From Bdellovibrio sp. KM01 (GTDB taxonomy: Bacteria; Bdellovibrionota; Bdellovibrionia; Bdellovibrionales; Bdellovibrionaceae): 64,000 nt of DNA. The notes beneath the pieces were generated by a model that had not been told where the DNA came from, did not search any database, and saw only the letters and a list, made by a program, of their open reading frames with translations. Positions 18,281-39,405 of the stretch are shown piece by piece; position 1 is the first letter of the stretch, and each line of letters starts with the position of its first letter. The stretch covers positions 2,232,001-2,296,000 of the forward strand of contig NZ_CP058348.1 of assembly GCF_013752535.1 (NCBI RefSeq), in the 5' to 3' direction. The translations under genes were made by a program, and so were the position numbers.

Positions 18281-18389
18281 TCTTGACCCAGTCTATCAGG
18301 AGGCTCCCTTTTTTTTGAGCAAACAAAAAAAGATGCTCGACCTTTGTCCAATAACTTAATAACGTAGGCCCTTGCATCAAGGAGCATCA

Positions 18390-19409
18390 ATGGACGCAAT
18401 GCAGAGCATCGGAATATTCGCCGCACAGACCTTTCTAATCCTCTTTGCTATTTTAGCGGTCATCATAGTCATCGCCGTTCTTGCTGCCAAAGCGGGCCAC
18501 AAAACAGAAGTTGAAGTAGAACTTTTACATAAGAAATACAAAGGCTTCCGCAATCTCCTTAAAGCGCACACAATTTCCAAATCTGAGCGCAAAGAACTTA
18601 AGAAAAAACTTAAAGCAGAACGTAAAGCTCACGATGCAAAATCGCAGGGACACGAAAAGAAAATATTCGTGGTCGACTTTGAAGGCGACGTGAAGGCTTC
18701 GGCGGTTGAAAACCTGCGTGAAGAAATCACAGCGGTCCTGACTATCGCGACTCCGCAAGACGAAGTTGTCGTTCGCGTGGAAAGCCCGGGCGGCGTCGTT
18801 CACGGTTACGGCCTGGCGGCTTCCCAACTTTTGCGTGTACGTGAAAAAAACATTCCTTTGACTGTGTGCGTGGATAAAGTTGCGGCCTCTGGTGGCTACT
18901 TGATGTCTGTGACAGCTAACAAAATCCTATGCGCTCCTTTTGCGATCGTGGGTTCGATCGGCGTGGTGGCTCAGGTTCCAAATCTTCACCGCGTTTTGAA
19001 AAAACACGATGTGGACTTCAAAGAATACACCGCGGGCGAGTACAAACGCACCGTAAGCCTTTTGGGTGAGATCACTCCAAAAGGTGAAGAAAAGTTCAAA
19101 CAGCAACTTGAAGACACGCACGTGTTGTTCAAGGGCTTTGTGGGCAAGTTCCGTCCACAACTTAATTTAGAAGAAGTAGCCACAGGCGAATACTGGTATG
19201 GCGAGCAAGCTATCACTAAGGGCTTAGTGGATGAAATTCGTACAAGCGATGATTACTTGATGACGTTGGCGGACCAACACCAAGTGATCAAAGTGAAGTT
19301 CGAACAAAAACAGTCTATCGGCGATAAACTGACAGGGATTTTAGGGAAAGCCATGAAAAAAGGCGCCCTTTCCATCGTCGAAGAACTAGAAACACGTCGT
19401 TTCCTTTAA
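18390..19409 (+). CDS. sohB: SohB-type S49 peptidase
   Basis: 339 residues (E. coli SohB 349) from ATG 18390 behind AAGGAG. An N-terminal membrane helix (residues 8-35) and charged coil are followed by the ClpP-like S49 domain. SPGGVVHGYG is the oxyanion/turn motif and DKVAASGGYLMSVTANKI carries the catalytic Ser, with a downstream Lys expected. Periplasmic membrane-anchored protease. 15 bases before oppD, so it may be co-transcribed with the peptide importer. Confidence 0.93.
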   Translation: MDAMQSIGIFAAQTFLILFAILAVIIVIAVLAAKAGHKTEVEVELLHKKYKGFRNLLKAHTISKSERKELKKKLKAERKAHDAKSQGHEKKIFVVDFEGDVKASAVENLREEITAVLTIATPQDEVVVRVESPGGVVHGYGLAASQLLRVREKNIPLTVCVDKVAASGGYLMSVTANKILCAPFAIVGSIGVVAQVPNLHRVLKKHDVDFKEYTAGEYKRTVSLLGEITPKGEEKFKQQLEDTHVLFKGFVGKFRPQLNLEEVATGEYWYGEQAITKGLVDEIRTSDDYLMTLADQHQVIKVKFEQKQSIGDKLTGILGKAMKKGALSIVEELETRRFL

Positions 19410-19424
19410 AGAGGTACATAGATA

Positions 19425-20396
19425 GTGCAAGAAACTCCTGTTATCGAAGTCAAAAATCTTGAGACGACCTTCGTTACGAAGGCCGGCCCCTTCAAGGCCG
19501 TTAACAACATTTCTTATTCAATCAACAAAGGCCAAACCATGGGCATCGTCGGGGAATCTGGTTGCGGTAAATCCGTAACTTCATATTCCCTCATGCGATT
19601 GATTGAAAGACCTGGCACTGTTACAGGTGGTCAGGTTTTGCTGAACGGCCGCGATCTTTTGAAAATCAATGAAGCGCAAATGGAAGAAGTTCGCGGTGGC
19701 GAGATGGCCATGATCTTCCAGGAGCCGATGACAGCCTTGAATCCTGTTCTTACGATCGGTCGTCAAATGGACGAACAGATCATGCGCCATAAAAAGTGCA
19801 CACAAAAAGAATCCAAAGACCGCGCGATTGAAATGCTTCGTCTGGTGGGTATTCCGTCGCCTGCTGAACGCTACAACTCTTACCCTCACCAACTCTCGGG
19901 CGGTATGAGACAACGTGCGATGATTGCGATGGCTTTGTCTTGCGATCCCATGTTTTTGATCGCCGATGAACCGACGACAGCTTTGGACGTAACGATCCAA
20001 GCGCAGATTTTGGAACTGATCCAAGGTCTACAACAAAAATTCAATATGACAGTGCAGTTCATCACTCATGACCTGGGCGTGATCTCGGAGATCTCGGACC
20101 GCGTGATGGTGATGTATGGCGGTCAATTCTGTGAACAAGCTGACACTCAAGAACTATTCCTAAATCCTCGCCATCCGTACACGGCGGCGTTGATTGCGTC
20201 TCGTCCAAAGTTTGGCGAGCGCGTGGCAAGACTTAGAACTATCGAAGGTTCTGTTCCTGCTCCTCACGAACTTCCTAAGGGTTGTCCGTTTACGAATCGC
20301 TGCCCGCGTGCCGTGAATGAATGTGCGGTTCTAAAACCACCTGTTGTTGAATTTAAACCTGGCCATACTGTGGCTTGCTTTAACCCGGTAGCTTAA
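19425..20396 (+). CDS. oppD: oligopeptide ABC transporter ATP-binding protein
   Basis: 323 residues, GTG start 19425 behind AGAGG. Walker [10 protein letters not shown]-loop [10 protein letters not shown], signature LSGGMRQR, Walker B LIADEP and switch His in FITHDLGV are all present. The C-terminal OppD/DppD extension carries the [14 protein letters not shown] cysteine cluster, which in this family binds Fe-S. Pairs with OppF to power peptide import. Confidence 0.96.
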
Positions 20397-20408
20397 GGAG
20401 TGATGCAG

Positions 20409-21395
20409 ATGAACGAAGTCATTCTGGAAGCCAAAAATATCAAAAAGCACTTCCCGATCAAAAAAGGTTTTTTGATGCGCGAAGTGGCCAGCGTTAAAGC
20501 CGTCGACGATGTTTCTTTGATCGTACGCAAAGGTGAAACTTTGGGCCTGGTTGGAGAATCCGGTTGCGGTAAATCCACACTGGGTCGCACGTTGATTCGT
20601 CTTTACGAACCCACAGCCGGATCAATCAATTTTGAAGGTCAAGATTTCCTAAAACTATCTGGTGAACAGCTTCGTCAAAAACGTCGCGACATGCAGATGA
20701 TCTTCCAAGATCCTTTTGCTTCTTTGGATCCGCGTATGACCGTGGGTCAAGCGATCCGCCAGCCAATGGACATCCACAACGTTGGAACCATGGAAGAGCG
20801 TGAAAAACGCGTTTTGGAATTGATTGAAGTTGTGGGTCTTAGAAAATCCACAGTGAATCGCTACCCGCATGAATTCTCTGGTGGTCAACGTCAGCGTATT
20901 TCTATTGCCCGCGCGATTGCTTTGAATCCTGAACTTATTATTTGTGACGAACCGGTTTCGGCGTTGGATGTTTCCATTCAAGCTCAGATCTTGAACTTGT
21001 TGGAAGACCTGCAACAGAAATTGGGTCTGACTTATATTTTCATCTCTCATGATCTTTCCGTGATTGAGCACATCTGTGATCGTATTGCGGTGATGTACCT
21101 GGGCAAGATCGTAGAAATCGCGGAACGCGATGAACTTTTCTCGAACCCACAACATCCTTACACCCAGGCGTTGATCGGTGCGATCCCACGCGTGGGCCAC
21201 GGTAAGAAAATGATGAAGAAATCATTGGGTGGAGAAGTGCCAAGCCCCATCAATCCACCTTCAGGCTGCTCTTTCCATACACGCTGTCCGTATGTCATGG
21301 ACGTTTGTAAGGAAAAGATCCCGGTTCTTGAGGGCGCTGGCACTCACCAAAAAGCATGCTGGTTGGATAAAGCACCCGTTATGCGGGCTGAATAA
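20409..21395 (+). CDS. oppF: oligopeptide ABC transporter ATP-binding protein
   Basis: 328 residues from ATG 20409. That start is preferred to GTG 20400 or ATG 20403 because AAGGAG lies 8 bases before it. Walker [10 protein letters not shown], signature FSGGQRQR, Walker [17 protein letters not shown]-terminal Cys cluster [14 protein letters not shown]. Partner of OppD, 12 bases downstream of it. Confidence 0.96.
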
Positions 21396-21420
21396 TTTAG
21401 GTATCAACAAGGAGAAACGA

Positions 21421-23109
21421 ATGTTGAATAGACTTGCAAAAGGATTGTTGCTGGGAGCCGCTCTTGGAATGAGCGCACAAGCTGTGGCAGCTCCTTCTAA
21501 TGCCGAATTGAAAATCGGTATTTCTCAGGAATTTGAAACTTTGAATCCCATCATCATGTCCATGTCGGCATCCGCTTACATGTACCGTATGGTGGGTCGT
21601 TCATTGGTGAACCTGACTCCGGATGGAAAATGGGTTCCGCAATTAGCGAAAGAGATTCCTTCGATCGAAAAAGGCACTGCTAAAATCATCGACGATGGCG
21701 GCAAAAAGAAAATCGTCGCTAACTGGGAAATCATCGACGGCGCTAAATGGGGCGACGGCAAACCAGTTATCTGTGCCGACTTTATCGCTTCTCAAAAAAT
21801 TGCCACGTCTCCTAACGTAGCTGTTGGTGAGAAAGAGCAATGGACTCAAGTTGAAAAAATCGACGTGGATCCAAAAAATCCTAAAAAATGTACTTTCAAA
21901 TACGACAAAGCGATCTGGAGCTTCTATCAATTGGCTCAGTTCTTCCCAGTGCCTGCGCACTTGGAGCTGGCTGTCTTTGAAAAACACGGCAAAGCTAAAG
22001 AAGGTTACGAAAAGAACTCTAACTATGTTCGTAATCCCACCAACCCGGGTCTTTACAGCGGTCCTTATGTGATCACTGAAGTGAAATTGGGTTCGCACGT
22101 GGCTTTTGCACCAAATCCACATTTCTATGGTAAAAAACCAAACATCCAAAAAGTGATCGTAAAATTGATTCCGAACACAGGAACAATGGAAGCGAACCTT
22201 CGTTCCGGAACTATTGATATGGTTTCTGTTCTGGGTTTGGATTTTGACCAAGCCTTGGCTTTCGAGAAAAAAGCGAAAGCAGAAGGTCTGCCATTCGACG
22301 TTTTGTTCGTACCGTCCGTGACTTACGAACATATCGACTTGAACCTGGACAACCCGATCTTGAAAGATGTGAAAGTACGTAAAGCACTTTTGTACTCGAT
22401 CAACCGTGATGACTTGGTAAAAGCTTTGTTCGAAGGCCGCCAAGAAGTCGCAGTTCACAATGTTTCCCCTAAAGATCCTTGGTTCACTAAAGATCCAAAA
22501 GTGATCACAACGTATGCTTACTCTAAACGTACTGGCGGAAAATTATTGGATGAAGCGGGTTGGAAAATGGGTGCTGATGGTTTCCGTTCTAAAGACGGCA
22601 AACGCCTTTCATTGGTATTCCAAACAACTGCAGGTAACAAAACTCGTGAGTTGGTTCAGGTTTACCTACAAAACCAATGGAAACAAAACGGCATCGAGGT
22701 TCTAGTTAAAAACGAACCAGCACGTGTATTCTTCGGTGATACGATGTCTAAACGTAAATTCGCTGGTATGGCTTTGTTTGCGTGGGTTTCTTCTCCGGAA
22801 AACTCACCTCGTTCCACTTTGTCTTCTAAAGCAATTCCATCCAATAAAAATGGTTGGTCAGGTCAGAACTATATGGGCTGGACAAATGCTCAAGTGGATA
22901 AAGATCTAGATGCTTTGGATCTGGAGTTTGATGCGAAAAAACGCACAGCTTTGGTTCACGACATGTTGAAACAATACACTGATGAAGTTCCTGTACTTCC
23001 TTTGTACTACCGCTCTGACATCTCTGTAGTTCCTAAGAATTTGAAAAACTACAAAATGTCTGGTCACCAGTTCTACGAAACTAACTATATCGAAGACTGG
23101 TCTTTGTAA
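21421..23109 (+). CDS. oppA: oligopeptide-binding protein, SBP family 5
   Basis: 562 residues from ATG 21421 behind AAGGAG. Signal peptide ending AVAAPSNAELKIG. Extracellular solute-binding family 5 features: LNPIIMSMSASAYMYRMVGR, then ALLYSINRDDLVKAL, and a C-terminal DEVPVLPLYYRSDI. Captures peptides in the periplasm and hands them to OppB/OppC. No lipobox, so soluble. Confidence 0.95.
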   Translation: MLNRLAKGLLLGAALGMSAQAVAAPSNAELKIGISQEFETLNPIIMSMSASAYMYRMVGRSLVNLTPDGKWVPQLAKEIPSIEKGTAKIIDDGGKKKIVANWEIIDGAKWGDGKPVICADFIASQKIATSPNVAVGEKEQWTQVEKIDVDPKNPKKCTFKYDKAIWSFYQLAQFFPVPAHLELAVFEKHGKAKEGYEKNSNYVRNPTNPGLYSGPYVITEVKLGSHVAFAPNPHFYGKKPNIQKVIVKLIPNTGTMEANLRSGTIDMVSVLGLDFDQALAFEKKAKAEGLPFDVLFVPSVTYEHIDLNLDNPILKDVKVRKALLYSINRDDLVKALFEGRQEVAVHNVSPKDPWFTKDPKVITTYAYSKRTGGKLLDEAGWKMGADGFRSKDGKRLSLVFQTTAGNKTRELVQVYLQNQWKQNGIEVLVKNEPARVFFGDTMSKRKFAGMALFAWVSSPENSPRSTLSSKAIPSNKNGWSGQNYMGWTNAQVDKDLDALDLEFDAKKRTALVHDMLKQYTDEVPVLPLYYRSDISVVPKNLKNYKMSGHQFYETNYIEDWSL

Positions 23110-23132
23110 TTCGTATTTAAGAGAGGCTACCC

Positions 23133-24104
23133 ATGACTACATTTATCACCCGTCGCATCTTGCAAACTCTCGCAGTGATAGCTGTGCTATCCTACGTGGT
23201 TTTTGTTCTGATGAGTTTAATGCCCGGAGATCCGGTGGACATGATGGTGGCCTCAAACCCCAAAATCACGGCTGAAGACGTTGCCCGTCTGAAAACTTTG
23301 TATGGATTGGATCAACCGATCTACAAACGTTATGGAAACTGGATGGCGTCATTAGTGACCGGTGACTTGGGTTACAGCCGTACTTATCGTGTGCCCGTTC
23401 AGGAATTGATGGGCCCACGTCTTTGGAACACCTTTATTCTTTCTGCGGCATCACTGTTTTTGTCGATCGTGATTGCGGTTCCACTGGGAGTGATTTCGGC
23501 ATTAAAACCAAACTCCAAAACCGACTATTTCATGAATTTCTTTTCGTTTGCAGGTATCTCGATACCCTCGTTCTGGCTGGCGATCGTATTAATTATCGTC
23601 TTTGCCGTAAAAATCCCGCTGTTCCCGGCCGGAGGCACACAAACTATTGGTGCTGAGAATATGGGATTCTGGGCCGACATCATGGACCGTGCGAAGTATT
23701 TGGTATTGCCAGTACTGTCTTTGTCGATTCAACAAATCGGTCGTTTCTCGCGCTTTACTCGTTCCGCAATGGCCGAGGCTATGCGCAATGACTTTATCCG
23801 TACGGCGAAAGCCAAAGGTCTTAACTATAAGACCGTGGTTTGGAAGCATGCTTTCAGAAATGCTTTGATTCCTTTGATCACGATCTTAGCTTTAAGCATC
23901 TCCACTTTATTCTCGGGTGCTCTTTTGACTGAAACCGTTTTTGCTTACCAAGGAGTAGGTAAATTGGTTTACGACTCGATCATCGGTAACGACTATAACG
24001 TGGCGATGATTTCATTTGTTATTTCTGTGAGCATGGTTTTGCTAATGAACTTAGTGGCCGACATCCTTTACGGATTCGCAGATCCACGTATTGCTTACAA
24101 GTAG
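23133..24104 (+). CDS. oppB: oligopeptide ABC transporter permease
   Basis: 323 residues, six membrane spans. N-terminal FITRRILQTLAVIAVLSYVVF and MPGDPVDMM are typical of OppB/DppB. The ATPase-contact EAA loop is ...MRNDFIRTAKAKGL. The downstream oppC frame begins close to or overlapping its end, depending on the oppC start. Confidence 0.96.
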   Translation: MTTFITRRILQTLAVIAVLSYVVFVLMSLMPGDPVDMMVASNPKITAEDVARLKTLYGLDQPIYKRYGNWMASLVTGDLGYSRTYRVPVQELMGPRLWNTFILSAASLFLSIVIAVPLGVISALKPNSKTDYFMNFFSFAGISIPSFWLAIVLIIVFAVKIPLFPAGGTQTIGAENMGFWADIMDRAKYLVLPVLSLSIQQIGRFSRFTRSAMAEAMRNDFIRTAKAKGLNYKTVVWKHAFRNALIPLITILALSISTLFSGALLTETVFAYQGVGKLVYDSIIGNDYNVAMISFVISVSMVLLMNLVADILYGFADPRIAYK

Positions 24105-24132
24105 GTCGCAGATGTCAGGAAGTGAATTAACA

Positions 24133-25329
24133 ATGAATAACATAGATATGTCGACAACACTTACAGACAAAGACCGCGCGGATCTTGAAAAAGCGATGCC
24201 GATGTGGAAGATGATTCTTACCCAGTTCTTGGACCACAAGTTGGCCGTGGCGGGATCGATCATCATCGCTTTGTTTCTTTTGGTTGCGATCTTTGCCAAT
24301 ACAATTGAATCCATCACGGGCCTTGATCCCGACGCCCAAAACGTCGCAAACCGTTACGTGGCGCCATTCGAGACAACCCAAGCTGGTCCCGATGTTCGCG
24401 AAACTGAAATTGAAAAATTCATTTTAGCGAACCCGAACGAAGCTGACAAAATTCAAAAGGCCTTGGTCGAAAAAGGACTGGTTTCAGTCCCTGAAGCCGA
24501 TGCGATTTACGATGTGGGTTCTAAAGAAGTTCCTGAAGCGATCAAAATCTTTAAGTCTTTGGACATTCCAGAAACCAAAGGATTGTTGAAAACCTTTGAT
24601 GGCTTTAAAACTTTCCACTTTTTTGGAACTGATGAATTGGGCCGCGATGTTTTCATCCGTCTGGTTTATGGGACTCGCGTTTCCATGGGTGTGGGGGTTT
24701 TAGTCGCCATCGCATCTGCATTAGTGGGTCTTTTAATCGGAAGTATCGCCGGTTACTATGGTGGTTGGATCGACACCGCATTGATGCGTGTGACGGATGC
24801 TTTGCTAAGTCTTCCGACGATTCCAGTTTTGATCGTCATGGCTGCGATCGACTTTACTAAAATCCCCGTTTTAAATGCCATCGTCAGCACCCAGAACGAG
24901 TCGATCTTTAAGATGATCATCATCCTGTGCCTGTTTTCATGGATGACGGTTGCACGCTTGGTACGTGGAAGTATCTTGTCCTTGCGCGAGCGCGAGTTCA
25001 TTTTGGCAGCAAGAACTTTGGGTGCAAAAGACAGCACAATCATCATTCGTCACATGTTCCCGAACGTCATCGCTCCGATGTTGGTATCAATCACTTTGGG
25101 CGTCGGCGAATCCATCTTGTTTGAAGCAGCCCTTTCCTTCTTGGGTTTGGGTATCATGCCACCAACACCAAGCTGGGGGAATATGCTGAACAACGCTCAA
25201 GAGTTGATTTACCAAGCACCGTTCCTGGCAATCTTGCCAGGCATCTTGATCTTACTTACAACAATCAGCTTCAACTATCTGGGCGACGGCCTCCAAGACG
25301 CGATCGATCCAAAATCCGTTCGCCGCTAG
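24133..25329 (+). CDS. oppC: oligopeptide ABC transporter permease with long periplasmic insertion
   Basis: 398 residues from ATG 24133, which follows AGGAAG; ATG 24112 is an alternative. Most OppC proteins have about 300. After membrane span 1 there is a charged stretch of about 90 residues (DPDAQNVANRY... to ...LLKTFDGFKTFHF) before the family motif FFGTDELGRDVF. The EAA loop LREREFILAARTLGA and the C-terminal LSFLGLGIMPPTPSWG are normal. The insertion probably faces the periplasm and the OppA docking side. Last gene of the operon. Confidence 0.93.
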   Translation: MNNIDMSTTLTDKDRADLEKAMPMWKMILTQFLDHKLAVAGSIIIALFLLVAIFANTIESITGLDPDAQNVANRYVAPFETTQAGPDVRETEIEKFILANPNEADKIQKALVEKGLVSVPEADAIYDVGSKEVPEAIKIFKSLDIPETKGLLKTFDGFKTFHFFGTDELGRDVFIRLVYGTRVSMGVGVLVAIASALVGLLIGSIAGYYGGWIDTALMRVTDALLSLPTIPVLIVMAAIDFTKIPVLNAIVSTQNESIFKMIIILCLFSWMTVARLVRGSILSLREREFILAARTLGAKDSTIIIRHMFPNVIAPMLVSITLGVGESILFEAALSFLGLGIMPPTPSWGNMLNNAQELIYQAPFLAILPGILILLTTISFNYLGDGLQDAIDPKSVRR

Positions 25330-31113: not shown

Positions 31114-31578
31114 GAGACACTCAATACTCGGCCCACAGGTTTACCAAGAGCGGAAGATGCACGTGCGATTGCAGATATTTTCACCAGCACGGGCGATGAA
31201 GAACTTTTAGCGCAGGAATACTTTCCCGAAGCGTTCGGGACTGACGTGCGCGCATTCGTGGTTGGAGGAGAAATCAAAGCTGCGATGAAAAGAACGGCTC
31301 GCCCGGGAGAGTTTCGCAGCAATCTCGCATTAGGAGCCACGGCGGAACCCTGCACGTTGGAACCCTATGAATCTGAATTGATTTTAAAAACTATTCGTAC
31401 TTTGGGTTTGCAGGTCTCTGGTGTCGATCTATTGCGAACGCGTAAAGGCAGTCTGGTTTTAGAAGCGAACCCTTGTCCTGGGTTAGAAGGCATAGAAAAA
31501 TATAGTCAGCAGAACCTTGCAAACAGCATCATTCAATATGCTGAGGAGCTGTATGGCAAACACAAGACCTCGCGTTGA
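31114..31578 (+). pseudogene. RimK-type ATP-grasp ligase, 5'-truncated remnant
   Basis: About 154 codons readable from a stop at 31111. They match the C-terminal half of RimK: AQEYFPEAFGTDVRAFVVGG, AAMKRTARPGEFRSNLALGA, VSGVDLLRTRKGSLVLEANP, GLEGIEKYS. The N-terminal lobe and the first half of the ATP-grasp fold are absent; the BFD gene occupies that place. The distal end still overlaps gloB by 26 bases, so it was once coupled to it. RimK enzymes add Glu residues to proteins; this copy should be inactive unless a short product has another use. Confidence 0.75.
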
Positions 31579-32311
31579 GCTTATCCCTATCTTTGAAGAC
31601 AATTATGTCTTCTGTTTGATTGATGATAACAATCAAGAGGCTCTTGTTATTGATCCAGGCGAATCTTCCAAAACTTCTAATTATTTAAAAGAGAATAATT
31701 TAAAACTTACTGGCGTCCTGTTGACCCACCATCATAACGATCATGTGGGCGGAGTTCGCTCCCTGATCTCCGAGCATCCTGCACCAGTGTATGCTCCGAT
31801 GAAAAACAAATCACAGATTGGCTCAGCTGATACTTGGGTAGCTGAAGGCCACACGGTGCGAGTGGGACCCTTTGAATTTCAGGTGCTGGAACTTCCCGGC
31901 CACACACTGGGACACGTCGCCTACTGGGAGCCAAAATTCAAATGGCTTTTTTCAGGTGATGTTCTTTTTGGATTAGGCTGCGGAAGATTGTTCGAAGGGA
32001 CCTATGAACAAGCTTACGAAAGCCTTCAACGAATTAAAAAACTACCTGAAGAAACGTTAGTCTATTGCACTCATGAATACACCGAATCCAATCTGACATT
32101 TTGCAATATGCTTTCTAATTTAGACGACTCCCCTATCACCGGCGACAGCGAAGAGTTAGAAATGTATGCGAATCAATTGCTATCTCGCCGAGAAATGAAT
32201 TTACCCTCGGTGCCGCTCAAATTATCAGTGGAACTGCGAGTGAATCCATTCTTGCTGGCCAAATCCGTAGCGCAATTTACTTATCTGCGGGATTTGCGCA
32301 ACAAACAATAA
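31553..32311 (+). CDS. gloB: hydroxyacylglutathione hydrolase (glyoxalase II)
   Basis: 252 residues from ATG 31553 behind GAGGAG. Metallo-beta-lactamase fold with THHHNDHVGG (metal ligands), ELPGHTLGHVAYW, LFSGDVLFGLGCGRLFEG and YCTHEYT. Glyoxalase II length is about 251. Hydrolyses S-lactoylglutathione in methylglyoxal detoxification. Preceded by the RimK remnant. Confidence 0.96.
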   Translation: MANTRPRVELIPIFEDNYVFCLIDDNNQEALVIDPGESSKTSNYLKENNLKLTGVLLTHHHNDHVGGVRSLISEHPAPVYAPMKNKSQIGSADTWVAEGHTVRVGPFEFQVLELPGHTLGHVAYWEPKFKWLFSGDVLFGLGCGRLFEGTYEQAYESLQRIKKLPEETLVYCTHEYTESNLTFCNMLSNLDDSPITGDSEELEMYANQLLSRREMNLPSVPLKLSVELRVNPFLLAKSVAQFTYLRDLRNKQ

Positions 32312-32843: not shown

Positions 32844-32983
32844 GAATTCGTCCTTTGTTTAATGCCCCATCACCTATCGTGATTCCCGGGCAATGTCGTC
32901 CATTTTCTATATTTTTCACACCCAGCATCGGGGGCAGGATTCACAAATTAACATTTGTTACCCGCCACAATGAATCCCAAATG

Positions 32984-33010
32984 AAAAACCGCGTTCATCA
33001 CGCGGTTTTT
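32984..33010 (-). terminator. terminator after the halogenase gene
   Basis: 11-bp stem AAAAACCGCGT/ACGCGGTTTTT with a 5-base loop; on the minus strand it follows the stop codon at 33017 by 6 bases. Confidence 0.85.
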
Positions 33011-33016
33011 CAACTA

Positions 33017-34618
33017 TCAAGCTTCTGTTTCAACGATCCAAGTATCCTGATCTTCAAATAGCTGCTCCAATAACCCACCCTCAATCAGATAGTCCTCGCT
33101 GAAAAGCTCATGCAGGCTGAGCGCCTTTTTAGTCAGTTCTTGATACGAAAGCGTGCGCTGCACGTATTCTTCCTTAGTCATCTTAGGGCGCACTGGCGGA
33201 CGCTCCAGAGCTTTTTGACCATACAAAAGGGTGTCATAGCTATAACTATTAAATACCAGGGCCTCACAAGCCGTGTATGGAGAGTTCGTTCCAAGATTGC
33301 TGGCGCTTAGTGGCGCACGTTGATTGAAAAGATCCACCACCATCTGTGCATCACCCATTTCAGTATTTGCACGGCAGTCTTTCCAGTACTGGGTATCCAG
33401 CTGCTTATTGTATTTGTAGTGCACTGCCAAGAACCATCGGAACGTATCCCAAGTCGCTGCGATCTCTTGATTGATGGCTGCGATGCTGGAGCTGTCTTGA
33501 TGGTTGTTCGGCATAAGCTTACACAACGTCATGATGCTGTGAACAGCTGTTTGAATGGCTGTGGATTCCAAGGGCTCCACAAAGCCGTAAGCATTTCCCA
33601 AGCCGAAAACGTTTTTATTCCAAGCTTGTTTTTGACGGCCTGTACGGAACTCCACCATTTTGTATTTTTCAAAGTGGCCGAATCTTGCACGTGCCTCTTT
33701 CAAAGCTTGTTCTTCATCACAGTACTGCGTGGAGTGCACGTAACCGTAGTGATTTTCGGTGCGCATTGGAATCGTCCACGCCCAACCATTCGGCATCGTC
33801 GTACATTGCGTGTAAGGACGGATGTCGTTGTTATTTGGTAAATCAAAAGTCAGCGCGCGGTTATTTCTTAATGTTGAGGTGAATGGGATGAACTCTGTTT
33901 TAAGAGCTTGCCCCAGGATGCGCGAACGGAAACCCGAGCAATCAATGTACAAATCAAAAGAATGCTTTTTACCGTCATCTGTTTCGATAGACGTCACAAA
34001 ATCATTATCATCCAAGTGAACATTCTCAACCACAGCGTCGATGATTGGAATTTGTCTTTGCTTAACAATGTTATTCAAGAAACGGATCAGATTCTTATTA
34101 TCAATATGATAAGAAAATGGAATGCTTTGAAGCAAAGAGATCATCTCTCCGTTTTTTTCGCGGATCACAGGGATTTTGTGATTATCCATCAACACCGATG
34201 CCCAGTTGGCATTGTTGATAGAATCTTCGTAATAGTAACTTTCCTGCTGATGACCAGCAAAGAAGTTAAAATTAAAATGATAGTCCCCAGGACAGCCCCA
34301 ATCAAAGCGAATACCCAATTTAATTGTCGGTTGAACCGCCTGGAAAAACTCTTGAGGATCGATACCCAAAGTACGGTGCAAGAACGGAACGATCTCGGTT
34401 GTTGTCGACTCGCCCACGCCAATCACTGGAATTTTGCTGGATTCGATCACAGATGTTTGAATTTTAGGGTGCAGCTTTTTAAGCGCCAAGGCTGCCAGGT
34501 AACCAGCCGTCCCGCCGCCCAGGATCCCGATGGATTTGATTTCTGTCTGAGGATATTTAGAAAAATTCAGGTAACTAAGATCAAAAGCTGTGTCGATATA
34601 ATCGGACAAAGACGCCAT
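33017..34618 (-). CDS. flavin-dependent halogenase (tryptophan halogenase family)
   Basis: 533 residues, in the size range of PrnA/RebH. FAD-binding GILGGGTAGYLAALALKK near residues 28-45. PTIKLGIRFDW holds the likely catalytic Lys at residue 100. The signature WxWxIP is present as W279-A-W-T-I-P. The family uses FADH2 and chloride or bromide to form HOX and halogenate an aromatic substrate. A separate flavin reductase is needed and none is next to it. No biosynthetic cluster surrounds it, so the substrate is unknown. Own terminator downstream; apparently single. Confidence 0.92.
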   Translation of the reverse strand: MASLSDYIDTAFDLSYLNFSKYPQTEIKSIGILGGGTAGYLAALALKKLHPKIQTSVIESSKIPVIGVGESTTTEIVPFLHRTLGIDPQEFFQAVQPTIKLGIRFDWGCPGDYHFNFNFFAGHQQESYYYEDSINNANWASVLMDNHKIPVIREKNGEMISLLQSIPFSYHIDNKNLIRFLNNIVKQRQIPIIDAVVENVHLDDNDFVTSIETDDGKKHSFDLYIDCSGFRSRILGQALKTEFIPFTSTLRNNRALTFDLPNNNDIRPYTQCTTMPNGWAWTIPMRTENHYGYVHSTQYCDEEQALKEARARFGHFEKYKMVEFRTGRQKQAWNKNVFGLGNAYGFVEPLESTAIQTAVHSIMTLCKLMPNNHQDSSSIAAINQEIAATWDTFRWFLAVHYKYNKQLDTQYWKDCRANTEMGDAQMVVDLFNQRAPLSASNLGTNSPYTACEALVFNSYSYDTLLYGQKALERPPVRPKMTKEEYVQRTLSYQELTKKALSLHELFSEDYLIEGGLLEQLFEDQDTWIVETEA

Positions 34619-34680: not shown

Positions 34681-35430
34681 TTAAGAAGCAAAGAATTTTT
34701 GCTGCCACATCGCTTGGCGCTCGTCAGTGATACCGTATTCAGTAAGTAAAAATTTCTGGATGCTACCGGTCTTGGACTTCATTTCTTCTAACGCTGCATT
34801 CAGAAAGCCCTCGTGAGCGCCCATCATGTATTGGAATCCCTCCATGGCTTTATCAGAAAGGATGTTCTTAAACTGAATCATCAGGCCATTACGAAAAGGC
34901 TCAAGACCCGTTTGTGTTTGCAGATAGTCTTTCATCACCTGGGACTCATCCACTCCCAAAGCCAAAAGCATCAAGGCAGTTCCTACACCTGTACGGTCTT
35001 TACCGACCGCGCAGTGCTGAAGCATCCCCTTGCCTGACATTTCATCCATCACCGCAAACATGCGACGATAAGCCTGATTATCAAAAGGCAAAGTGCGATA
35101 AAGCTTTTCCATGTACTGCGGAGGAATATTCTCCAGATGCTCTTTGGTAAAAAATGAACCTAAGTTCGCACTCATCCGATACGCAACGGGATTGGCCGGG
35201 CAGTTTTCATAAGCGACTCCGTCCCACAGAACATCTTTATCATGGGCAGCTTCAGAGGGATCTCGGAAATCAATCACGTGCCCAATTGTCGTTTGCAAAA
35301 GCAGAACATCGTCTGATGTGAGCTTTGACAATGCTCCGGAACGATAGAATTGACCCGATATAAGCTGATGACCTTGGACAGAAACATGCCCACCCAGATC
35401 GCGGAAGTTAATTGCGCCAGTAAGTTTCAA
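34681..35430 (-). CDS. protein tyrosine/serine phosphatase family protein
   Basis: 249 residues, TTG start 35430 with GGAG nine bases before it. N-terminal NFRDLGG and FYRSGALSKLT are typical of the Y_phosphatase3 family. The Cx5R active site is HCAVGKDRTG, where Cys is the nucleophile and Arg binds phosphate. Acts on phosphoproteins or phosphoinositides; the target is unknown. 15 bases after trmO, hence co-transcribed. Confidence 0.9.
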   Translation of the reverse strand: MKLTGAINFRDLGGHVSVQGHQLISGQFYRSGALSKLTSDDVLLLQTTIGHVIDFRDPSEAAHDKDVLWDGVAYENCPANPVAYRMSANLGSFFTKEHLENIPPQYMEKLYRTLPFDNQAYRRMFAVMDEMSGKGMLQHCAVGKDRTGVGTALMLLALGVDESQVMKDYLQTQTGLEPFRNGLMIQFKNILSDKAMEGFQYMMGAHEGFLNAALEEMKSKTGSIQKFLLTEYGITDERQAMWQQKFFAS

Positions 35431-35445
35431 ATGAGGAACTCCGGT

Positions 35446-36183
35446 TTAGAGGATTTCGAAGACGAAGAAGTGACCTTCTCGCAGTTCGTATTTTACATCA
35501 CTTCCCAGGATATCAAAGCCGTATCTCTGTCCCCAGCTCTTTGAGTCCGTAATGGGATCCTGGCGCTTCTGAAACGCTGGACGAGGGTCCAATTCGAGAA
35601 TGCTGATAATAAGATTACGAAGGTTGTTCTGGTTATTCGGATCGCGTATTTTTATCGCCGCCTCAGCATCGTCAGAGAAAAGCACTTCTGTGCGCTCGAT
35701 AGGATCGCTTGCCCAACCCGCGTTCGCCTCAGGAATCGAGTCTGCGTAAGGAATATAAGGTTTAATATCAAGCACTGGCGTGCCATCTAAAAGATCCACG
35801 CCGTGCACGTGAATTTCAGGGCCGCCCTTGGCATCAAAATCAATCTTTTCAATTTTTACTGCCGACATTCCAATCGGATTCGGTCGGTGCGGAGAACGCG
35901 AAGCTAAAACACCGACTTTACGATTCCCGCCCAATCGCGGTGGACGAATGCTAGGTTTCCAGTTTTTGCCACCATGTTCGTGAAAAACAAAAACAATCCA
36001 AAGATGAGAGAACTCTTCCAGACTGCGAATTGCAGTCAACAGATCAGGATCAGGCAACAGCTTAATAATCCCCTTAGCAGGATTCGCAAGCCCCGGCTGG
36101 CGAGGAATTCCAAATTTATCATGAAAGGGCGTTTGTACATGCCCTATCGCTGAAAATTCAAATGTCTCGCCATGCTTCTGCAT
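35446..36183 (-). CDS. trmO: tRNA t6A37 N6-methyltransferase TrmO
   Basis: 245 residues. Uses SAM to methylate t6A at position 37 of tRNA-Thr. Family motifs: FSAIGHVQTPFHDKFGIPRQ, WIVFVFHE, VGVLASRSPHRPNPIG and HVHGVDLLDGTPVLDIKPY. The start ATG directly follows a GGACCTGGCACC repeat module, and I see no usual ribosome site. Lies between ileS and the phosphatase, all on the minus strand. Confidence 0.95.
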   Translation of the reverse strand: MQKHGETFEFSAIGHVQTPFHDKFGIPRQPGLANPAKGIIKLLPDPDLLTAIRSLEEFSHLWIVFVFHEHGGKNWKPSIRPPRLGGNRKVGVLASRSPHRPNPIGMSAVKIEKIDFDAKGGPEIHVHGVDLLDGTPVLDIKPYIPYADSIPEANAGWASDPIERTEVLFSDDAEAAIKIRDPNNQNNLRNLIISILELDPRPAFQKRQDPITDSKSWGQRYGFDILGSDVKYELREGHFFVFEIL

Positions 36184-36242
36184 TTGGTGCCAGGTCCTAT
36201 CTATGTATGCGGCGCATCCCCAAAAGGTACGGCGTACCTTTT
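36184..36242. repeat. REP-like modules filling the ileS-trmO gap (C single + A2)
   Basis: GGTGCCAGGTCCTAT (36186-36200) equals the arm of the proB hairpin. 36222-36242 is the same 21-base palindrome, AAAAGGTACG-G-CGTACCTTTT, as at 947-967, with the lead GCGGCGCATCCCC. The element overlaps the ileS stop codon (36241-36243). Confidence 0.8.
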
Positions 36243-39200
36243 AGTTTTGCACGCCGATTTTGATTTTTTCGCCGTCGATATCGCTGTCGTCTACGTGAGC
36301 GCCTTTTGGCATTCCAGATAGAGGCAGGATATTCAACGTGTGAGTCAAAGTTTCAGACGTGATCATGTCCTTATGCGCGTTCAAAGCGTCAAGCAAAGCA
36401 CCGTCGCAGGCGATTTCAAGAGTGATTTTATCATCAAGTTTGAAGTCCGCTGTTTTGCGGGCCACTTGGATCTTACGCATGATTTCGCGAGCCAGACCTT
36501 CACGCTCTTGCTCAGGTGTGACCGTTGGATCAACTTCGATCGATACCACTTGGTGCACTGACAAGTTCGCATTGCCACCTTTAGGAGCTCTGCGGATTTC
36601 AACGTCAGCCAACGTGATCTCTTCACCATCAACAGTGACTGAACCACCCGTTTCAAGTTTCAAGATGCTTTCAAGCGGCAATGCCATGATACCTGCGCCC
36701 ACTGATTTCATCTTAGGACCCAAGCGTTTACCAAGAACCGGGAAGTTTGCTTTCGCAGTCACTTGCACGAATTGGTCTTCGTTCGAATTGTAAACAACTT
36801 TACGGAAGTTCAATTCATCAACAAAGAACGGTTCGAACTTTTTCAAAGTCTCAAGCAACGCTGCACTTCTGTGGATAATCTTGATTTCGTTGAGTGGAAT
36901 TTTTGCTTTCACGCCGATTTTCTCACGGTGGTTACGACCGAGCGTCACCAAGGTATCCATCGCCTTCACAGCCTCTTCAAGCTCGGGGCGAAGCAAAGAA
37001 AGATCTTCTGGCGGGAAGCTTTCCAAATGCACAGATTCTTTCTTGTTCGGAAGAACTTGCGACAAGTTTTTGTAAGTTACTTCAGACATGAACGGCGCAA
37101 ATGGCGCCATCAAACGCGACAACGTCACCAAAACTTCATGCAAAGTCTCGTAAGCATAGCGTTTCGTTTCAGGCATGCCTTCTTGCCAGAACAAAGAACG
37201 ATTGAAACGGATGTACGTGTTCGTTAAATCCTCGATAAATTGAAGCAAGTGTGGCACCACGTTGTACAGGCGATAAGCGTCCATCTCTTTGTGAGTGTTC
37301 GCAATCAAACCGTTCAAACGAGAAAGAACCCATTGGTCTAAAATATTTGGAGATTTTTTAGCATCGCCTTTAGGAACAAAACCATCGATGTTGGCATAGT
37401 TCGCAAAGAACGAATAAGAATTCCACCATCTTAACAAGATTTTACGAACGATATCGTAAACGCCTTTTTCCGAGAACTTCAATTCCTGAGCTTTCACCAC
37501 TGGAGAGTCGATCAAGTACAAGCGCAAAGCATCGGCACCATGCTGGTTCAATACTTCCATTGGATCCGGATAGTTTTTCAAAGACTTAGACATCTTACGA
37601 CCGTCTTCCGCCAATACCAATCCATTCACCACCACGTTTTTGAATGGAGCCTGATTGAACAAAGCCGTACCGATGATTGAAAGCGTATAGAACCAACCAC
37701 GAGTTTGGTCCAAACCTTCGGCGATGAAATCAGCTGGGAAAGCTTTCTTGAAATCTTCGACAGAAGTTTCAGGATAGCCCCATTGAGCGTACGGCATGGA
37801 GCCCGACTCAAACCAGCAGTCCAAAACGCCTTCCACACGTTTCAAAGGAGATTTACCCGTCGGAGATGGGATCGTGATTTTATCCACGAACTCGATATGA
37901 AGATCTTCGACTGTTTGACCAGATAGTTTTTCAAGTTCCGCGCGGGACCCGATACACATCACTTCACCTTCTGGATTTCTCCAGATAGGAAGCGGAGTTC
38001 CCCAGAAACGGTTGCGAGAGATCGCCCAGTCACGAGCGCCTTCCAACCAGTTACCGAAGCGACCATCACGAAGATGATCCGGAACCCAAGTTGTGTTCTT
38101 GTTATTAGCAATCAACTCTTCTTTGATTTTTTCAACAGCCACAAACCATGAAGACACCGCACGATAAATCAGCGGCGTATCAGAACGATAGCAGTATGGA
38201 TAACTATGTTGAATCGTATCTTGCTTGAACAAGTTCCCTTTAGCTTTCAAAGCCGCGATAATATCTTTATCTGCTTCTTTAACGCGCTTCCCTTGATAAT
38301 CAGGAACTTCTGCTGTGAACATACCGTCGTCATCCACTGGGTTTACCAAGGGGATGCCAGCTTTTGCACAAGCATAGTAGTCTTCCTCACCGAACGCTGG
38401 CGCCATGTGCACCACACCCGTACCGGATTCAGTCGTTACGTGATCAGAAGAAATAATACGGAATGCACCTTTTTCAGCGCGATCGCCAAAGTATGGGAAT
38501 AGCGGTTCGTAAGTCAGACCTACCAACGCTGAGCCCTTCATCATTTCCAAAACTTCAACTTCCTCATCCGGCTTCTTAAACACGGATGGAAGCAAAGCTT
38601 GCGCAAGAATCAATTTACGACCCGAAGCCTTCTCCTGAACTTTGACGTAGTCCATTTCCAAACCCACAGCCAAAGCCATATTCGATGGAAGAGTCCAAGG
38701 AGTCGTCGTCCAAGCCATCACTGCCGTATCAGGTTGATTGATGAGTTTAAACATCACCGTGATCGCAGGGTCTTGAACCATTTTATAATTTTGATTCGCT
38801 TCAAAGTTTGAAAGCGAAGTCGAGATCCCTACAGAGTAAGGAACAACTTTGTGACCTTCATAGATCAAGCCTTTTTTGAAAAGCTCTTGGAACACCCACC
38901 ACACGGACTGCATGAAAGAAACGTCCATAGTGAAGTATGGATTTTCCATATCCACCCAACGACCCACACGGCGCACAGTTGTTTTCCACTCTGTGGAGTA
39001 ACGTTTTACGATCGAGCGGCAAGCGTTGTTGTACTCAGCCACGCCCATTTTGAAAACGTCTTTGCGAGATTCGATTTTATGAGTCTTGTTGATTTCGTAT
39101 TCAACCGGAAGACCGTGACAGTCCCAACCGAAACGACGAGGCACTGTGTAGCCCTTCATCGTCCAATAACGAGGAACAACGTCTTTCAAAACACCAGCAA

Positions 39201-39405
39201 GCAAATGCCCATAGTGAGGAAGACCTGTCGCAAACGGAGGACCATCGTAAAAGCTGTAAGTTTTTTTGCCTTTAGGATCTAGTGACTGTTGGAAAATCTT
39301 TTGCTGATCCCAGAAATCTAAAATGCCCTCTTCTTGCTTCGCAAGTTGAACATCAGGTTTTACAGCAGAATATGGAGTCGTTTTAGGGGTGTTTGCATTC
39401 GTCAT
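36241..39405 (-). CDS. ileS: isoleucyl-tRNA synthetase
   Basis: 1054 residues, the long form. Class I signature GLPHYGHLLAG (HIGH equivalent) near residue 60 and GRKMSKSLKNYPDP (KMSKS) near residue 610. The CP1 editing domain lies between (WTTTPWTLPSN, MAPAFGEED). The C terminus carries the anticodon-binding and extra domain of the eukaryote-like/long bacterial type, which often gives reduced sensitivity to mupirocin (family knowledge, not shown here). Charges tRNA-Ile. Confidence 0.97.
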   Translation of the reverse strand: MTNANTPKTTPYSAVKPDVQLAKQEEGILDFWDQQKIFQQSLDPKGKKTYSFYDGPPFATGLPHYGHLLAGVLKDVVPRYWTMKGYTVPRRFGWDCHGLPVEYEINKTHKIESRKDVFKMGVAEYNNACRSIVKRYSTEWKTTVRRVGRWVDMENPYFTMDVSFMQSVWWVFQELFKKGLIYEGHKVVPYSVGISTSLSNFEANQNYKMVQDPAITVMFKLINQPDTAVMAWTTTPWTLPSNMALAVGLEMDYVKVQEKASGRKLILAQALLPSVFKKPDEEVEVLEMMKGSALVGLTYEPLFPYFGDRAEKGAFRIISSDHVTTESGTGVVHMAPAFGEEDYYACAKAGIPLVNPVDDDGMFTAEVPDYQGKRVKEADKDIIAALKAKGNLFKQDTIQHSYPYCYRSDTPLIYRAVSSWFVAVEKIKEELIANNKNTTWVPDHLRDGRFGNWLEGARDWAISRNRFWGTPLPIWRNPEGEVMCIGSRAELEKLSGQTVEDLHIEFVDKITIPSPTGKSPLKRVEGVLDCWFESGSMPYAQWGYPETSVEDFKKAFPADFIAEGLDQTRGWFYTLSIIGTALFNQAPFKNVVVNGLVLAEDGRKMSKSLKNYPDPMEVLNQHGADALRLYLIDSPVVKAQELKFSEKGVYDIVRKILLRWWNSYSFFANYANIDGFVPKGDAKKSPNILDQWVLSRLNGLIANTHKEMDAYRLYNVVPHLLQFIEDLTNTYIRFNRSLFWQEGMPETKRYAYETLHEVLVTLSRLMAPFAPFMSEVTYKNLSQVLPNKKESVHLESFPPEDLSLLRPELEEAVKAMDTLVTLGRNHREKIGVKAKIPLNEIKIIHRSAALLETLKKFEPFFVDELNFRKVVYNSNEDQFVQVTAKANFPVLGKRLGPKMKSVGAGIMALPLESILKLETGGSVTVDGEEITLADVEIRRAPKGGNANLSVHQVVSIEVDPTVTPEQEREGLAREIMRKIQVARKTADFKLDDKITLEIACDGALLDALNAHKDMITSETLTHTLNILPLSGMPKGAHVDDSDIDGEKIKIGVQN

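Follow-up and report, generated by a model that had tools for sequence, protein, structure and literature searches.

The halogenase locus

In the window (the whole 64,000-nucleotide stretch of Bdellovibrio sp. KM01 DNA analysed here), an open reading frame at 33017-34618 on the reverse strand encodes a flavin-dependent halogenase of 533 aa. Its position and full length are exactly as originally predicted. A Pfam profile search matched residues 30-472 to PF04820 (Trp_halogenase) with an E-value of 7.2e-128; the score of 427.7 bits, where 21 would pass the cut-off, rules out a chance match. No second PF04820 protein occurs in the genome, which is a single contig of 3.96 Mb. The features of the locus are as follows.

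32982..33012, (-) strand: hairpin just past the halogenase stop codon, with a 13-bp stem, a 5-nt loop and a U run closing the 3′ arm (MFE -20.4 kcal/mol, z -4.63 against shuffled sequences)
33017..34618, (-) strand: coding sequence of the MibH-type flavin-dependent halogenase, 533 aa (PF04820, MibH 5uao as top PDB match, tree)
33554..33583, (-) strand: FVEPLESTAI, residues 346-355, the tunnel and halide-site motif Fx.Px.Sx.G by alignment, with the second conserved Glu at E351
33767..33784, (-) strand: WAWTIP, residues 279-284 (WxWxIP), both Trp, the Ile and the Pro invariant in 14 orthologues
34319..34321, (-) strand: Lys100 in KLGIRF, aligned with the catalytic Lys of Thal, AbeH and MibH and present in 14 of 14 orthologues
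34502..34519, (-) strand: GGGTAG, residues 34-39, the FAD-binding GxGxxG motif, invariant in 14 of 14 orthologues except at x positions
34681..35430, (-) strand: PF13350 tyrosine-phosphatase-like gene (profile match), co-directional with the halogenase and 62 bp upstream of it
35446..36183, (-) strand: TrmO tRNA methyltransferase (profile match), part of the context

The gene order on the reverse strand is IleRS, TrmO, the PF13350 phosphatase and then the halogenase. The hairpin at 32982..33012 is a probable transcription terminator, and its strength suggests that the halogenase is the last gene of that unit in the window. The phosphatase was rejected as an operon partner, as its homologues lie elsewhere in genomes both with and without the halogenase. 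A FliA-like promoter was also rejected; an upstream match was seen in one close orthologue alone (G011), where it overlaps the phosphatase stop codon. A scan for sigma-70 promoters upstream gave scores little above those of shuffled sequences. Near this locus, the sequence of a sister genome (G010) stops about 150 bp past the phosphatase, so that it offers no proven empty site for comparison. On the forward strand of the window, at about 31129-31580, a RimK-like ATP-grasp gene is reduced to a remnant: about 540 bp are gone, and what is left encodes only the C-terminal 146 residues. The gene is intact in G012 (280 aa, L019 6867-7709), and the G022 and G011 copies are similar in length.

No flavin reductase or biosynthetic gene was found beside the halogenase among the neighbours tested. 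This agrees with the original description of a stand-alone gene, which can be extended to the whole genome: searches found no PF01613 flavin reductase (present in 13 of 14 control genomes), no NRPS condensation domain and no LanC. In a search for NHLP leaders no positive control responded, which leaves the RiPP check thin.

Catalytic residues and family placement

Two hallmarks of variant A halogenases are found in the window protein: its PF04820 score exceeds the curated cut-off across the catalytic domain, and it combines GxGxxG, catalytic Lys and WxWxIP. The Lys predicted near residue 100 and the WxWxIP predicted at residue 279 are where they were expected, and alignment revealed the loss of neither. 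Glu351 is likewise invariant in 14 of 14 orthologues. The one departure is in the Fx.Px.Sx.G motif, which is usual rather than strict in the family: F346, P349 and S352 are kept, and the near-universal Gly is replaced by Ala354 in all 14 orthologues, whereas MibH and a Streptomyces homologue have Gly in the alignment. BrvH and Xanthomonas campestris enzymes are also exceptions, with Ser or Asn at this position, yet they halogenate indoles (PMC7336383). Annotation by a motif that requires the Gly would probably overlook the Bdellovibrionota group.

The original prediction proposed a comparison with PrnA and RebH and with variant B halogenases. Neither set fits, and the family indicated by bit scores and tree, the MibH type, had been missed. 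Among PDB sequences, MibH (5uao) scored 392.8 bits over residues 26-530, compared with 208 for PyrH, 173 for RebH and 170 for PrnA. Variant B enzymes, which act on carrier-protein substrates (CndH/CmlS/Bmp2 type), are excluded: all score below 31 bits (CmlS 30, CndH 23), whereas variant A enzymes of PF04820 reach 131-393 bits.

In a maximum-likelihood tree, MibH, a Streptomyces plasmid halogenase and 14 Bdellovibrionota proteins form a clade with 100/100 support that excludes Thal, BorH, AbeH, VirX1, Xcc4156 and L11. PrnA, RebH and PyrH are represented in this tree by their group mates rather than by their own sequences. The window protein therefore groups with MibH, apart from Thal/BorH, AbeH, Xcc4156/L11 and VirX1. 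Inside the clade, a sister relationship between the Bdellovibrionota proteins and the actinobacterial pair is moderately supported (81/78). An AlphaFold model of the window protein (pTM 0.80, mean pLDDT 72.8) gave MibH as the top Foldseek match (E 2.7e-45, TM 0.82). VIA-align Z-scores were 40.5 for PrnA and 37.1 for MibH, with SttH and RebH similar, so the fold alone cannot settle the subfamily. The window halogenase and its orthologues are of the MibH type and make up a new subfamily within an enzyme kind that is already known.

Other Bdellovibrionota carry unrelated halogenases. The G152 genome has a tandem pair (L031/L034), the first of which is of the L11/BrvH type, G047 has a VirX1-like halogenase (L018), and L032 and L033 are further loci of this sort.

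Orthologues, selection and probable horizontal transfer

Matches occur in 18 of the 369 genomes of the phylum, and 14 of those 18 belong to the type found in the window. These 14 orthologues come from 11 of the 24 Bdellovibrio genomes and from three other genera; those in genomes of the same genus are 69-97% identical to the window protein. The genome had been called predatory-type from its sequence, which is borne out by its identity as a Bdellovibrio and by an orthologue in G006, presumed to be B. bacteriovorus HD100 (1314915-1316510, 69% identical to the window copy).

The 14 copies lie in nine unrelated contexts, with immediate neighbours that include signal peptidase, a Na/H exchanger, Fpg, a DTW-domain protein, trypsin, Hsp20 and peptide transporters. 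No partner recurs across the nine contexts: among neighbour families, a generic ABC ATPase about 5-9 kb away is alone in occurring in at least three of them, and no homology extends past the coding sequence from one context to a different one. The presence of the halogenase is patchy on the rpoB tree. The halogenases of the window and of G006 share 69% identity, against 95.5% for rpoB, and those of the window and of G035, a different genus, share 79%, against 90.1% for rpoB. The G035 halogenase is in turn 84-85% identical to the G017, G020 and G008 copies, against about 90% for rpoB. Since the relationships of the gene and of rpoB disagree, horizontal transfer of the halogenase gene appears to be the simplest account of these sequences. 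The G+C content of the gene (0.450) is close to that of the window (0.460). An origin from a phage or plasmid was considered and rejected, as the best phage, plasmid and IMG/VR matches are about 24-33% identical, save for one Streptomyces plasmid (38.6%).

We used rpoB as the species marker and dropped IleRS, of which two unrelated types occur in Bdellovibrio and relatives (window 36241-39405, (-) strand, and L077-L083). The type in the window is 83-97% identical in 18 other genomes, and G003, G014, G017, G018 and G035 have a match of only 34-36% identity.

Within lineages, dN/dS was 0.018-0.051 for pairs with computable dS, several of which are almost saturated at synonymous sites. Such strong purifying selection argues that the halogenase is functional and, along with the retained key residues, is in keeping with the earlier expectation of a probably active enzyme. 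Taken together, the window gene is a real and, it appears, horizontally mobile halogenase gene, and its product is probably active. Our search of the literature on Bdellovibrio and halogenase turned up no paper that deals with it.

Proposed mechanism and substrate

We lean towards a MibH-type halogenase that is cytosolic, two-component and FADH2-dependent and is encoded as a one-gene module, with the indole of a Trp in a peptide or other larger molecule as its likeliest target. The conserved residues suggest how it would work. FADH2 arriving by diffusion would bind the GxGxxG domain and react with O2 to give a flavin hydroperoxide, and chloride or bromide held at the FVEPLEST loop would be oxidised to hypohalous acid. 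The acid would then travel along the internal tunnel and reach Lys100; this residue would position it or form a haloamine, and the Lys100-held halogen would be substituted onto an electron-rich ring, most likely that of a Trp indole within a peptide or other larger molecule. The WxWxIP segment would keep monooxygenation down. The reduced flavin may come from one of four FMN_red proteins or from an FNR-type protein of 259 aa, the reductase candidates in this genome. Served by a general cellular flavin reductase, such a module would need no dedicated cluster and could move alone among Bdellovibrio lineages.

Our best guess for the substrate, a peptide-borne or larger indole rather than free tryptophan, follows from the placement with MibH, given that both MibH and ChlH modify Trp within peptides, and from the absence of the Trp4 motif. 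In enzymes that use free tryptophan, Trp4 reads YYxxF(E/D)xEF(R/K)NFW (group A) or (Y/H)YHG (group B) (PMC8269204). The aligned region of the window protein reads TNSPYTACEALVFNSY and contains neither form, that is, the motif of PrnA, RebH and PyrH is absent. A peptide substrate is nevertheless put forward as hypothetical because the searches for condensation domains and LanC found no RiPP or NRPS machinery. Known MibH-type members are surrounded by a cluster with precursor peptide and maturation enzymes, a feature of their setting rather than of the enzyme, whereas the nine contexts here show no recurrent partner. Identity to MibH, at 39.5%, is low enough for the substrate to have changed.

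The G015 halogenase is flanked by POT-family and OPT-family oligopeptide transporters (L024 7763-12664), a suggestive hint at a peptide substrate that may be due to chance. Elsewhere in the window, at 18372-25329 on the forward strand, a peptidase S49 gene is followed by all the components of an oligopeptide/dipeptide ABC transporter, namely two ATPases, SBP_bac_5 and two permeases.

The main competing explanation, which we regard as possible, is that the substrate is small and free, either an indole or another aromatic compound (indole, a tryptamine-like or a prey-derived molecule), and that the enzyme has no specificity for peptides. A predator could presumably reach the indoles of its prey, the genome searches found no peptide-making machinery (condensation domain or LanC), and the orphan enzymes BrvH and Xcc4156 take free indole, and not free Trp, in vitro (PMC7336383). 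The tree, however, joins the window protein to MibH and places Xcc4156, L11 and VirX1 at a distance, and what BrvH-type enzymes do with indole in vitro may differ from their natural role. The original prediction had proposed a free metabolite or a prey-derived aromatic compound. The nearest enzymes speak against the former, as MibH and ChlH use peptide Trp, ChlH does not accept free L-Trp, and Trp4 is absent; the latter is possible.

A free-tryptophan halogenase of the PrnA/RebH/PyrH type, supplying halotryptophan, would share the Pfam family and the fold with the window protein, and PrnA even exceeds MibH in VIA-align Z-score. The scores and the tree set the window protein apart from Thal, BorH and AbeH, though, and the YYxxF..EF.NFW of Trp4 is missing, so we consider this account improbable. 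It is more improbable still that the protein keeps the fold of a flavin-dependent halogenase and has lost halogenation, to act as a monooxygenase or not at all. The invariant Ala354 in place of Gly at the halide and tunnel site could be taken that way, but the same Gly is replaced in functional BrvH-type enzymes (PMC7336383), Lys100, WxWxIP and Glu351 are invariant in 14 copies, and dN/dS is about 0.02.

If the peptide-borne Trp preferred here is the target, a further idea, and one we think unlikely, is that in predatory Bdellovibrio a MibH-type enzyme, self-sufficient and exchanged horizontally, halogenates Trp in peptides or proteins that no dedicated cluster produces, for example in prey peptides or the predator's own proteins. 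If true, this would be a peptide halogenase acting outside natural-product biosynthesis. The group may provide biocatalysis with a new peptide halogenase of separate evolutionary descent, and the copy in G006 offers a genetically tractable route to the natural role of orphan halogenases.

Comparison with known halogenases

Among orphan halogenases, BrvH and Xcc4156 resemble the window protein in lacking the Gly of Fx.Px.Sx.G, and they do not act on free Trp. They carry Ser or Asn where the window protein has Ala354, and Xcc4156, L11 and VirX1 fall in clades separate from it.

The halogenase on a plasmid of Streptomyces sp. NBC_00557 (NZ_CP107797.1, WP_330343269.1) is about 38% identical (38.1-38.6%) to the window protein and shares its clade. 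It differs in adjoining an NRPS gene, with flavin reductase, P450 and condensation-domain genes near. At this locus (L035 15013-18395) the NRPS gene is directly adjacent and a tryptophan 2,3-dioxygenase gene is near, a setting in which a carrier-bound substrate within the MibH clade is possible.

ChlH, the Trp halogenase of the lasso peptide chlorolassin, is 58% identical to MibH and chlorinates Trp in many peptides, but not free L-Trp (PMC12518702). Its likeness to the window protein runs through MibH, by identity taken from the literature rather than by direct alignment. ChlH is served by a flavin reductase of its own, ChlR, and belongs to a lasso-peptide cluster, whereas the window halogenase has neither beside it.

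The closest known relative is MibH (PDB 5UAO), the tryptophan 5-halogenase of the lanthipeptide NAI-107, which has the catalytic motifs and the 100/100 clade in common with the window protein at 39.5% identity. MibH chlorinates Trp only within the macrocyclic lanthipeptide (PMC12615548, PMC12518702). It has Gly in Fx.Px.Sx.G where the window protein has Ala354, and it is encoded within a RiPP cluster (PMC12615548), whereas the window gene stands alone. Characterised MibH-type enzymes belong to antibiotic-peptide clusters, and here a conserved group of the same type occurs free of any cluster in obligate predators.
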